From Acidimicrobiales bacterium (GTDB lineage Bacteria > Actinomycetota > Acidimicrobiia > Acidimicrobiales > Aldehydirespiratoraceae), in the NCBI GenBank assembly GCA_029263215.1, contig JAJCXY010000041.1, positions 1 through 64,000 on the forward strand: a stretch of 64,000 nucleotides of DNA, read 5' to 3'. Each line of letters starts with the position of its first letter. Within the stretch, counting starts at the first letter, position 1. Positions 5,788 to 36,322 of this stretch are shown here, one piece after another. Under the pieces are notes generated by a model, which saw only the letters and a list, made by a program, of their open reading frames with translations, had not been told where the DNA came from and ran no database searches. Both the position numbers and the translations under genes were made by a program.

Positions 5788-6275
5788 CCCTCCACCAACG
5801 CCATCTCGACACCCCGATCGGCCAACTCACGCTCGTCGCGTCCGAGGCGGGACTGAACATGATCCTGTTCGAGAGCGAAGATCCGCCGGAGATCGACGCC
5901 GCGATCGATGAATCTGATCCCATCCTCAGCTCTGCAGCCCGTCAACTCAGCGAGTACTTCGCCGGTGAGCGACGAGAGTTCGATCTTCCTCTCGACCTGG
6001 AGGGCACGGAGTTCCAGAAGGACGCGTGGCTGGCTCTCGCCGACGTCCCCTACGGCGAGACCACGAGCTACGGCGAACAGGCCCAAGCCATCGGACGCCC
6101 CGGTGCATTTCGCGCCGTGGGTGCGGCCAACGGCAGGAACCCCGTGCCGATCGTCTTGCCGTGCCATCGGATCGTGGGCGCCGACGGATCGCTCACCGGA
6201 TTCGCGGGCGGCCTCGACGTGAAGGCCCGGCTGCTCGCACTCGAGCAGTCGCAACAGTCTCTTCCCGGGGTCTGA
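5784..6275 (+). CDS. ogt: Methylated-DNA--protein-cysteine methyltransferase
   Basis: VLPCHRIVGADGSLTGFAGG active-site motif; start overlaps the upstream stop (ATGA). Confidence 0.93.
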   Translation: MTLHQRHLDTPIGQLTLVASEAGLNMILFESEDPPEIDAAIDESDPILSSAARQLSEYFAGERREFDLPLDLEGTEFQKDAWLALADVPYGETTSYGEQAQAIGRPGAFRAVGAANGRNPVPIVLPCHRIVGADGSLTGFAGGLDVKARLLALEQSQQSLPGV

Positions 6276-32968: not shown

Positions 32969-33763
32969 GTGAATGTCGACCGCCTGCAATCATTGTTCGG
33001 ACTCGAAGGCAAGCGGGCTGTTGTCACCGGCGGATCCCGCGGGATTGGCTACATGATCGCGGATGGGCTGGTCGATGCCGGCTGCGAGGTGGTCATCTCG
33101 GCCCGCAAGGCCGATCAGGTAGCGGCGGCGGCGGAGGCCTTGTCGGCCAAGGGGACCTGTGTCGGGATACCCGCCGACCTCTCCACCGATTCCGGAATCG
33201 AGCACCTCGCCGCGGAGCTGGGTGAGCGCTGGGACGGGCTCGACATCTTGTGCAACAACGCCGGTGCCTCGTGGGGCGAACCCCTCGACAACTTCCCCGC
33301 CGGGGGGTGGGACAAGGTGATGAACGTCAATGTGCGCGGTGTGTTCTTTCTCACCCAGAAGCTCCTGCCCCAGCTCCGAGCCGCGGGCAGCGCAGAATCA
33401 CCGAGCCGGGTCATCAACACAGGTTCGGTCAATGGCCTCACTCCCCCCGAATGGGACACCTTCTCGTACTCGTCGTCGAAGGCGGCGGTGCACATGCTCA
33501 CCCGCCACCTCGCCAAGAGCTTGGCGCCGGACCACATCACCGTCAACGCGATCGCTCCGGGGCCCTTCGATAGCCAGATGATGGCCTTCGCGCTGAGCAA
33601 TCCGGATACCCGCGACGCCCTCGCCAACGATGTGCCGATGGGCCGGATCGGCGTGCCCGACGACATGGCCGGTGTCGCTATCTACCTGGCATCGCAGGCG
33701 GGATCGTTCGTGACGGGAGCGATCGTTCCCGTCTCCGGCGGTCTGTCCACCGTCTACAAGTAG
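32969..33763 (+). CDS. SDR-family oxidoreductase
   Basis: AVVTGGSRGIGYMIA, NNAGASWG, YSSSKAAVHMLTRHLAK; GTG start. Confidence 0.92.
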   Translation: MNVDRLQSLFGLEGKRAVVTGGSRGIGYMIADGLVDAGCEVVISARKADQVAAAAEALSAKGTCVGIPADLSTDSGIEHLAAELGERWDGLDILCNNAGASWGEPLDNFPAGGWDKVMNVNVRGVFFLTQKLLPQLRAAGSAESPSRVINTGSVNGLTPPEWDTFSYSSSKAAVHMLTRHLAKSLAPDHITVNAIAPGPFDSQMMAFALSNPDTRDALANDVPMGRIGVPDDMAGVAIYLASQAGSFVTGAIVPVSGGLSTVYK

Positions 33764-34209
33764 GTCCCCGCCTGCTGGGGGAGCCCCGGCCGTTGGGGTG
33801 CCTGGTCGGGTCGGTTGGCCTGGAGCTGTTGTAGCTGCATCGCAGCAGCGGCATGCTGCTGGGCCATCGACGCCTGGAGTCCTTGAAGCAGGCCTTGGAG
33901 CCAGCCGACGAGCTGGGCTTGAGCAACCCGGATCTCGGCTTCCGAGGGGACGCCATCGTCGCCGCAGCAGGCCGTGAACTCGGTGAGTTCGTCCATCAGA
34001 TCCGATGACAGCACCGTGGCCAGTTCCTCCATCGTCTCATTGTGGATTCGCGCCAACATCCGGCGGCTGTCCTCATCGGTGTCGGCCTGACGGACCTCGG
34101 CCATGAGGGTCTGAACCATGGTGCCGAGCCGGATCAGCTTGGCCGGATCGGACACGCTTGGCTCAGGTTCGGGTTCGGGTTCGGGCTCATCGATAGGTAG
34201 ATCGCTCAT
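33754..34209 (-). CDS. bpa: Bacterial proteasome activator (Bpa/PafE, DUF2587 family)
   Basis: PAKLIRLGTMVQTLMAEVRQADTDEDSRRMLARIHNETMEELATVLSSDLMDEL...VPSEAEIRVAQAQLVGWLQGLLQGLQASMAQQHAAAAMQLQQL; C-terminus ...AGTYL matches the family GQYL-type tail. EP-repeat N-terminus. Confidence 0.88.
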   Translation of the reverse strand: MSDLPIDEPEPEPEPEPSVSDPAKLIRLGTMVQTLMAEVRQADTDEDSRRMLARIHNETMEELATVLSSDLMDELTEFTACCGDDGVPSEAEIRVAQAQLVGWLQGLLQGLQASMAQQHAAAAMQLQQLQANRPDQAPQRPGLPQQAGTYL

Positions 34210-34270: not shown

Positions 34271-36322
34271 TCAAGGGCTGATCGAGCGCACGACGGGTAG
34301 CAGGATGTTCCGTTCGAGCAGGGGAAGTTCGTCGTCGTAGCCGATCATGGTCACGTTCATGGAATTGTCGTCGCTTCGCTCATAGACGACGAGATCGAGG
34401 CCGGCGGTCGAGAATACGAAGCGACTCCACTCGGACCCCAAACCTGACGGCAGGGCCGACGCCTTGAGATCCCCTGATGCTTCCACGTCGAGATACCAGA
34501 ACAGCTCATCCCGATCGATCGGGCCGGCTCTCAACACCAGGGCGGTGGGGTCGAGTTGGTCGAGGCTGCGCCACCAGACGTCTTCATCCACGTAGGCCTC
34601 GCCCCACCAGTCGGGAAGCTCGACATCGATCAGTTGGGTACCCGGCCCTGGCTTCACGTCGAACGATCCGGAGAAGGTCTCGGCTGTGAGCTCGGGGACG
34701 AGCCCCACCGGACGGTCGTCGACCAGGGGGCCGGTGGCGATCGAGGCGCACCCTGTTGCGAGGGGTCGGCCGGGGTCGTCGATGAACTCCGTCATGATTC
34801 CCGAGGCGCAGAGGCCTTCGTCGGAGTCGTGGCCGAGGTCGGCCGACGCGACGAGGGTCGCAGCGGGCAGCCGGGCGGCCAGGGCGTCAGCCCACCACGG
34901 AGGGGTTATCGGGTCGATCCCGCCCGACATGACGAGGGTGGGCGCGCCCCAGCTGACCGGATCGTTCTCGGCCGGGGCGCTGGGGCCGGTGTCCCAGCTC
35001 GCGCAGATCTCGATCAGGTCCACGCCGATCAGGCCAGGGGCGAGGTTGATTCGCTCGTACGGCGAGGTTGACGCTGCGGCCTCGTCGAGTTGGGCCGGCG
35101 TGGTGAAGGGGACTTCCTCACGGCACTGCACCGCCACGTAGGCGGCAACCTCCCCGATGTCGAAGACGCCGTCGCGGGCGATCCGCTCCAGCCTGGACAC
35201 ATCGCCGTCGAGATAGTCGATGAGGGTGTCGGGTATCATCGCTGCGGTTGCCGCGGTGTAGAGCAGGGAGTGAAAGCCGTTGATCAGGTCGTCGCCGTTG
35301 AACTGCATGTCGTATGTCGAGTCCTGGCTGACGGGAATCTCCACGGGCATCGGCTGGGCATCGAGGATCGCCACCACCTGTTCGAACGCAGCCCACGGGT
35401 CGGGCAGTGCCTCGCCGCAGATCGGGCTGTCGACACAGGCCTGGAAGACATGGTCGAGGGCGGCCTCGTAGGTCTCGGGCACCGAGCCGATCAGGTTCTC
35501 CTCGATCGGATAGACCCCGCTGAGGATCACCGCTCGGATACCTTCGGGGTGATCGCGCATGATCGTCTGGGCCAGGCGGGTGCCGTAGGAGTTGCCGTAG
35601 AGGTTGTACCGGTCGACCCCGAGGGCATACATCAGCTCCACCACGTCGTCGGCGTGTGATTCGCTGTTGTACGAGCCCAGATCGATGCCGTTGTCGTTGC
35701 TCAGCCGTTCACCGCAACCGGCCACCAGATCGGTGTAGTCGGCGGCGATGTCGACATGGGCGGTGGCGCTGGCGAAGAACTCGTCGTCGAGGAGATAGGC
35801 CTCATGGCAGATCGGTAGAGCCGACGACTCGCCCGCGCCTCTCTGATCGAAGAGGATGACGTCGCGGTCGGCTATGAAAGGATCGACCACCGACAGGTAG
35901 AGCCGGTCGGCGTTCGCCAGAACCGAACCCCCTGGTCCTCCGTGCAGATACACGACCGGATCCGGCTCAGGGGCGGCGGTCTTGGCTCGGAAGATCGCGA
36001 AGGCGATGGAGACCGGATCCACCGCGGGATCATGGCGGGGCGGCACCGTGATCGTCCCGCACTCGACCCCGACAGGGACCGCGTCGGTGTCGAACGTACA
36101 GATCGCCTTCTCGACATCTAGAGGGATGGAGAGCGGGTCGGCTCCACCGGGCGTGCTGGAGTCGGTGGGCGGAGGCAGTCTGGTGACTGCGTCCGGGTCG
36201 ATTCGAGAGATGTCGGGAGCGCTGTAGCGGTCGGCCAACTCGTCGGGTGAGATCGAACTGCACGCGGCAGCCACCGAAGCGAGAACCAGTCCGAGGGCGA
36301 GGCCCCGACGACAGACCGGCAT
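34271..36322 (-). CDS. Alpha/beta hydrolase (TAP-like) lipoprotein
   Basis: Lipobox LASVAAACSS; YLHGGPGGSVLANAD, LFDQRGAGESS, nucleophile elbow YGNSYGTRLAQ. Confidence 0.87.
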   Translation of the reverse strand: MPVCRRGLALGLVLASVAAACSSISPDELADRYSAPDISRIDPDAVTRLPPPTDSSTPGGADPLSIPLDVEKAICTFDTDAVPVGVECGTITVPPRHDPAVDPVSIAFAIFRAKTAAPEPDPVVYLHGGPGGSVLANADRLYLSVVDPFIADRDVILFDQRGAGESSALPICHEAYLLDDEFFASATAHVDIAADYTDLVAGCGERLSNDNGIDLGSYNSESHADDVVELMYALGVDRYNLYGNSYGTRLAQTIMRDHPEGIRAVILSGVYPIEENLIGSVPETYEAALDHVFQACVDSPICGEALPDPWAAFEQVVAILDAQPMPVEIPVSQDSTYDMQFNGDDLINGFHSLLYTAATAAMIPDTLIDYLDGDVSRLERIARDGVFDIGEVAAYVAVQCREEVPFTTPAQLDEAAASTSPYERINLAPGLIGVDLIEICASWDTGPSAPAENDPVSWGAPTLVMSGGIDPITPPWWADALAARLPAATLVASADLGHDSDEGLCASGIMTEFIDDPGRPLATGCASIATGPLVDDRPVGLVPELTAETFSGSFDVKPGPGTQLIDVELPDWWGEAYVDEDVWWRSLDQLDPTALVLRAGPIDRDELFWYLDVEASGDLKASALPSGLGSEWSRFVFSTAGLDLVVYERSDDNSMNVTMIGYDDELPLLERNILLPVVRSISP

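Follow-up and report, generated by a model that had tools for sequence, protein, structure and literature searches.

The window that we analysed, a stretch of 64,000 nucleotides from an Acidimicrobiales genome, encodes a divergent second Bpa/PafE protein, whose sequence indicates that it most likely acts as a second ATP-independent activator of the 20S proteasome with a changed substrate choice. This protein, for which we coined the clade label Bpa2, is the real point of interest of the locus, and an earlier reading of the DNA letters and open reading frames (the sequence-only reading) had missed that it is the second, divergent Bpa of its genome. The assignment of the ORF to the Bpa family made in that reading was upheld on several counts. 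The ORF, which starts with ATG and ends in ...QQAGTYL*, matches the Pfam BPA HMM (PF10759) with 132.8 bits (E 1.1e-38; curated cut-off 29.5), and the M. tuberculosis Bpa chains in the PDB match it at E ~2e-28, residues 17-132 aligning without a gap. A first AF2 model based on 41 sequences had no significant PDB match; a deeper alignment (124 sequences) was then used, and the resulting monomer model, of modest confidence (pTM 0.55), matches PDB 5LFJ (E 1.8e-6) and also 5IET, these M. tuberculosis Bpa structures being its sole significant PDB matches, at TM scores of only 0.41-0.57. Chance similarity between coiled coils is ruled out by the BPA match at E 1e-38 together with the M. tuberculosis sequence matches, and the window ORF is a genuine Bpa/PafE protein. 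The EP-repeat N-terminus pointed out in the sequence-only reading is indeed present in the window gene but is not conserved; being peculiar to the window gene of the host genome, it was discarded as a meaningful feature.

Table 1. Features of the Bpa2 locus (window positions) and the ordinary Bpa gene of the same genome.
Feature	Position	Strand	Evidence or remark
SDR-family oxidoreductase, convergent neighbour, 264 aa	32969..33763	+	Pfam adh_short_C2, E 4e-53
10-nt convergent overlap, both stop regions	33754..33763	.	Same 10 nt only in G007 and G020
Bpa2, second, divergent bacterial proteasome activator, 151 aa	33754..34209	-	Pfam, PDB, AF2 fold, dN/dS
C-terminal GTYL motif, HbYX type, predicted docking in PrcA alpha-ring pockets	33757..33768	-	Sequence, Tyr conservation
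Codons of helix 4 (residues 90-131), ring-lining; Q105 and replacements at M. tuberculosis positions 131, 138 and 145	33817..33942	-	Alignments, model helix limits
Codons of C81-C82, invariant Cys pair, helix 3 end / H3-H4 linker	33964..33969	-	Alignments, model secondary structure
Alpha/beta hydrolase, TAP-like C-terminal domain	34271..36322	-	Pfam Abhydrolase_1, E 2e-20
Ordinary Bpa (Bpa1)	contig C38:34096-34482		Stronger PF10759 match of the host's two

In descriptions so far, Bpa is one homooligomeric activator found alongside the proteasome, and HspR is its one well-studied regulatory substrate. The host genome (G000) holds two Bpas, an ordinary one (Bpa1, 183 bits to PF10759) and the window protein (133 bits). 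A Bpa was found in every one of 61 relatives' genomes, and a second copy, of the window type, was detected in four genera of the host's family (g1, g8, g9 and g10), in a single g3 genome and in a genome of another family (G052); window-type genes are also present in Acidimicrobiia/Acidimicrobiales MAGs (L076 and L077) and in other Acidimicrobiales MAGs, and in one assembly (G015, 82% complete) the window type is the only Bpa found. Outside Acidimicrobiales, no Bpa2 was recognised by match score in a 297-genome sample of the phylum, nor among the best 80 loci of a genome-contig scan. In a maximum-likelihood phylogeny all window-type proteins form one clade (support 100/100) on a long stem of 1.7 changes per site, which attaches near other long branches, so that its sister group is uncertain. 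The Bpa2 core shows dN/dS values of about 0.02-0.09, like Bpa1, indicating strong purifying selection, and prcA accompanies Bpa2 in 21 of 22 genomes, missing only from an 81% complete assembly. None of the papers that we searched describes a paralogue of Bpa, and the word 'paralog' is absent from the Bpa papers that were checked for it.

The residues that distinguish the clade were identified by comparing 23 Bpa2-type proteins with 66 ordinary Bpas in M. tuberculosis numbering, which revealed ten positions where a residue nearly fixed in Bpa2 is rare or absent in the ordinary proteins. Positions 55, 127 and 103 are among these ten. Position 55 is K or R in all 66 ordinary Bpas and Q in 22 of the 23 Bpa2 sequences; position 127 is likewise always E or D in the former and always Q in the latter. 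Two further, ring-lining positions differ as well: F138, found in 53/66 ordinary proteins, is never matched by an aromatic residue in Bpa2 (A, T, V, I or M instead); and position 145, R, Q or H in 64/66 ordinary proteins, is mostly A, M, L or T in Bpa2. In M. tuberculosis Bpa, H131, F138 and R145 bind HspR, and K55, the sole lysine inside the ring, crosslinks to it (PMC11953334). At these HspR-recruiting positions (131, 138, 145 and 55) the window protein has Q, A, A and Q, respectively. Only part of this set separates Bpa2 from Bpa1, since position 145 is Q in many ordinary Bpas, host Bpa1 included, and both host copies have Q at 131, which is hence not discriminating. All 23 Bpa2-type cores moreover contain exactly two cysteines, arranged as CC in 18 and as CxDC in five, with P103 of M. 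tuberculosis replaced by C in every one, whereas core cysteines are absent from the 66 ordinary Bpas.

Bpa2 shares with M. tuberculosis Bpa (Rv3780; PDB 5LFJ, 5IET and 6BGL) the four-helix Bpa domain, ~115 residues of which align gap-free, a disordered N-terminus and linker, a HbYX-type tail ending in YL, the presence of prcA and prcB in the genome and a gene distant from the proteasome locus. It differs in having GTYL instead of GQYL, in the replacement of K55, E127, F138 and R145, in the vicinal Cys pair that takes the place of Pro-Phe in the LPF segment, and in having another Bpa encoded in the same genome. That other protein, Bpa1, is of the same family and carries the same GTYL tail, but retains K55, E127, F138 and LPF, has a core without cysteine and, according to our ORF reading, adjoins a DNA polymerase III alpha-like gene, whereas Bpa2 adjoins the SDR gene. 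The CxDC Bpas of other Acidimicrobiales (L081, L084, L099, L104 and L166) belong to the Bpa2 clade and have its WLQGL helix, Q55, two cysteines and GTYL; they are distinguished by the CxDC spacing, by Met or Leu at positions 138/145, and by being the sole Bpa found in their genome. Such is the case in G416 and four MAGs (G062-G065), all with prcA, which suggests that Bpa2 can serve as the only Bpa of a cell and makes a stand-alone function probable in these lineages.

The host has the machinery on which a Bpa would act. Its prcB and prcA were found, and the full Pup-proteasome set is located on a separate contig (C56), where pup (64 residues, ending in KGGQ), dop and pafA, identified by sequence and position, adjoin prcB/prcA; an Mpa/ARC (765 bits, C-terminus TGQYL) is also encoded. 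The absence of a proteasome from the host is thereby ruled out. The sequence-only reading had correctly remarked that proteasome genes are not nearby, none occurring in the examined part of the window, an arrangement that is normal for Bpa genes (PMC4254994); it had also named a missing proteasome core and a lack of Bpa homology as fatal to its proposal, and we looked for both and found neither. In M. tuberculosis, R26 and K52 of PrcA make contact with the tail residues Tyr and Leu of Bpa (PMC11953334); the host PrcA retains both pocket residues, as read off an ungapped alignment, and the tail Tyr is invariant across 124 aligned Bpa/Bpa2 proteins. GTYL had been presented as a variant of the mycobacterial tail: its docking function is supported by these data, but it is nothing unusual, being the commonest tail of both Bpa copies across the order. 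Mpa/ARC docks on the 20S with the same kind of tail, although it and Cpa are ATPases without sequence similarity to Bpa, and Mpa/ARC takes pupylated substrates.

We consider it probable that Bpa2 forms a ring, docks by GTYL, opens the gate and delivers substrates unlike those of Bpa1, without ATP or Pup. Bpa2 subunits would assemble into the ring, and their GTYL tails would enter the pockets in the alpha-ring of the host proteasome; docking and gate opening are predicted because both tail and PrcA pocket are conserved, the activator role resting on homology and conservation. The docked ring would then pass a substrate set distinct from that of Bpa1, a proposal made because the ring interior differs and based on changes that are fixed at positions of mapped function. 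As a conserved paralogue that combines the docking tail of Bpa1 with another interior and two cysteines, Bpa2 provides a natural experiment on how the interior determines selectivity, and it would mean that ATP-independent degradation by the proteasome has diversified among bacteria.

The fate of HspR is relevant to this proposed change of substrates. One strong HspR per genome was detected in nine of ten genomes checked, which dismisses the idea that Bpa2 is paired with a second HspR. A clear HspR is present in four of the five genomes with only a Cys-type Bpa (G416, G062, G063 and G065); in the fifth (G064) neither HspR nor GrpE was found, and its assembly is possibly incomplete. Since HspR is retained alongside a sole Cys-type Bpa, its loss cannot explain the altered interior, and Bpa2 may still handle HspR. 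The HspR C-terminal tail promotes Bpa-dependent degradation in M. tuberculosis; this tail differs between the copies of the host and G416, in both of which hspR (L217 3486-3863, minus strand, and L218 5449-5775, plus strand) follows grpE and dnaJ.

The Cys pair could add redox or metal control to the activity of Bpa2. In the model it lies directly after helix 3, within the H3-H4 linker. As the N-terminus and helix-4 extension of Bpa point toward the 20S (PMC11953334), the helix order would place this linker on the opposite face of the ring. The pair might be a redox or metal switch, or a covalent joint between neighbouring subunits, all of which we offer as suggestions. Tentatively, Bpa2 might be a gated ATP-independent activator in which CC or CxDC, repeated around the 20S-distal side of the ring, would sense oxidation or bind a metal and so switch substrate capture; the proteasome of Bpa2-bearing bacteria would then gain a chemically regulated 11S-like cap beside a constitutive Bpa1. 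Bpa2 is in this respect a testable candidate for regulated gating.

Bpa2 might instead be a partner subunit that enters hetero-oligomeric rings with Bpa1 and alters the number or nature of the lumen sites. Both proteins are encoded together in nearly all Bpa2-bearing genomes of family f1, both keep the tail, and seven of 12 tails are enough for docking of M. tuberculosis Bpa (PMC11953334), so that mixed rings could work. However, the five genomes with the CxDC type alone argue against an obligate heteromer in that subclade, and the occurrence of Gln at both 55 and 127 in the Bpa2 clade perhaps favours like-with-like assembly, so that we regard mixed rings as unlikely. A tail-bearing inhibitor or placeholder that occupies the 20S pockets in competition with Bpa1 and Mpa, without delivering substrates, is more doubtful. 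It would agree with the retention of the tail alongside the change to small residues at ring-lining positions that contact HspR in M. tuberculosis, and with the competition for the 20S known between M. tuberculosis Bpa and Mpa (PMC4254994), but one lineage has no Bpa besides the CxDC type, and the core, ring-lining helix included, is under strong purifying selection and not drifting. Similarly improbable, and slightly more so, is that the window gene encodes an ordinary Bpa that drifted neutrally after duplication, its Cys pair being a mere hydrophobic swap for Pro-Phe: the family match is clear overall and the two host copies share Q131, but the presence of two cysteines in every Bpa2-type core and in none of the ordinary ones, the low dN/dS and the clade-wide changes at ten positions all speak against it.

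The sequence-only reading had placed its emphasis on the overlap of Bpa2 with the convergent SDR gene, which starts with GTG and ends in ...GLSTVYK*. The overlap of 10 nt is confirmed: the shared sequence, CTACAAGTAG, contains Tyr-Lys-stop of the SDR plus one base and, on the other strand, Tyr-Leu-stop of Bpa2. Short convergent overlaps are common in prokaryotes, with 58 in E. coli (PMC2174442), and the overlap is by itself unsurprising. The overlap is not conserved, and the mutual constraint on the two C-termini proposed in that reading does not account in general for the conserved tail. SDR and Bpa2 are convergent in ten genomes (G000, G007, G014, G016, G018, G020, G022, G026, G028 and G032), but the overlap exists only in G000, G007 and G020, that is, at 3 of 16 family loci; in the remaining SDR-adjacent genomes gaps of 4-81 nt separate the genes, with the SDR ending in ST[VI]xK* and the TYL ending unchanged. 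In two genomes of genus g8 (G026 and G014), the two stop regions are kept apart by a 14-nt spacer that repeats the overlapped sequence directly but imperfectly (ACAAGTAGGTCGTT / ACAAGTACGT). This repeat is located at L037 about 5974-6000 and at the matching place in L046; with it there is a gap, without it an overlap, and deleting or duplicating the 14 nt could thus create or undo the overlap with both proteins unaltered. The only visible trace of the overlap is the codon of the overlapped Leu, TTG, a codon used for 8% of the leucines in twelve window genes that were sampled, this Leu being encoded by CTC or CTG where there is no overlap, G026 excepted. That the overlap is the key feature, locking the docking tail to the SDR C-terminus, is extremely improbable despite its reality and the TTG codon, given its rarity, the identical tails without it and a spacer showing that it comes and goes. 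It cannot be the cause of tail conservation: GTYL, the norm in the order, occurs whether or not the genes overlap, so the overlap is incidental and has no role, and the tail is conserved through docking.

On the other side of Bpa2, the alpha/beta hydrolase gene lies 61 nt upstream on the same strand and is a possible operon partner; it is a conserved upstream neighbour of Bpa2 in genus g8 and is found nearby in g9. Other Bpa-like duplicates were observed along the way. Genome G049 encodes a second Bpa-like protein (L051 5806-6387, plus strand; 64 bits to PF10759) that ends in ...TNAAGG without a YL tail and is a separate divergent Bpa paralogue devoid of the docking motif. Outside the host's class, six genomes (G578, G595, G612, G524, G625 and G703) have two Bpa-type matches each, often one of them very divergent, and Bpa may have been duplicated independently in more lineages.
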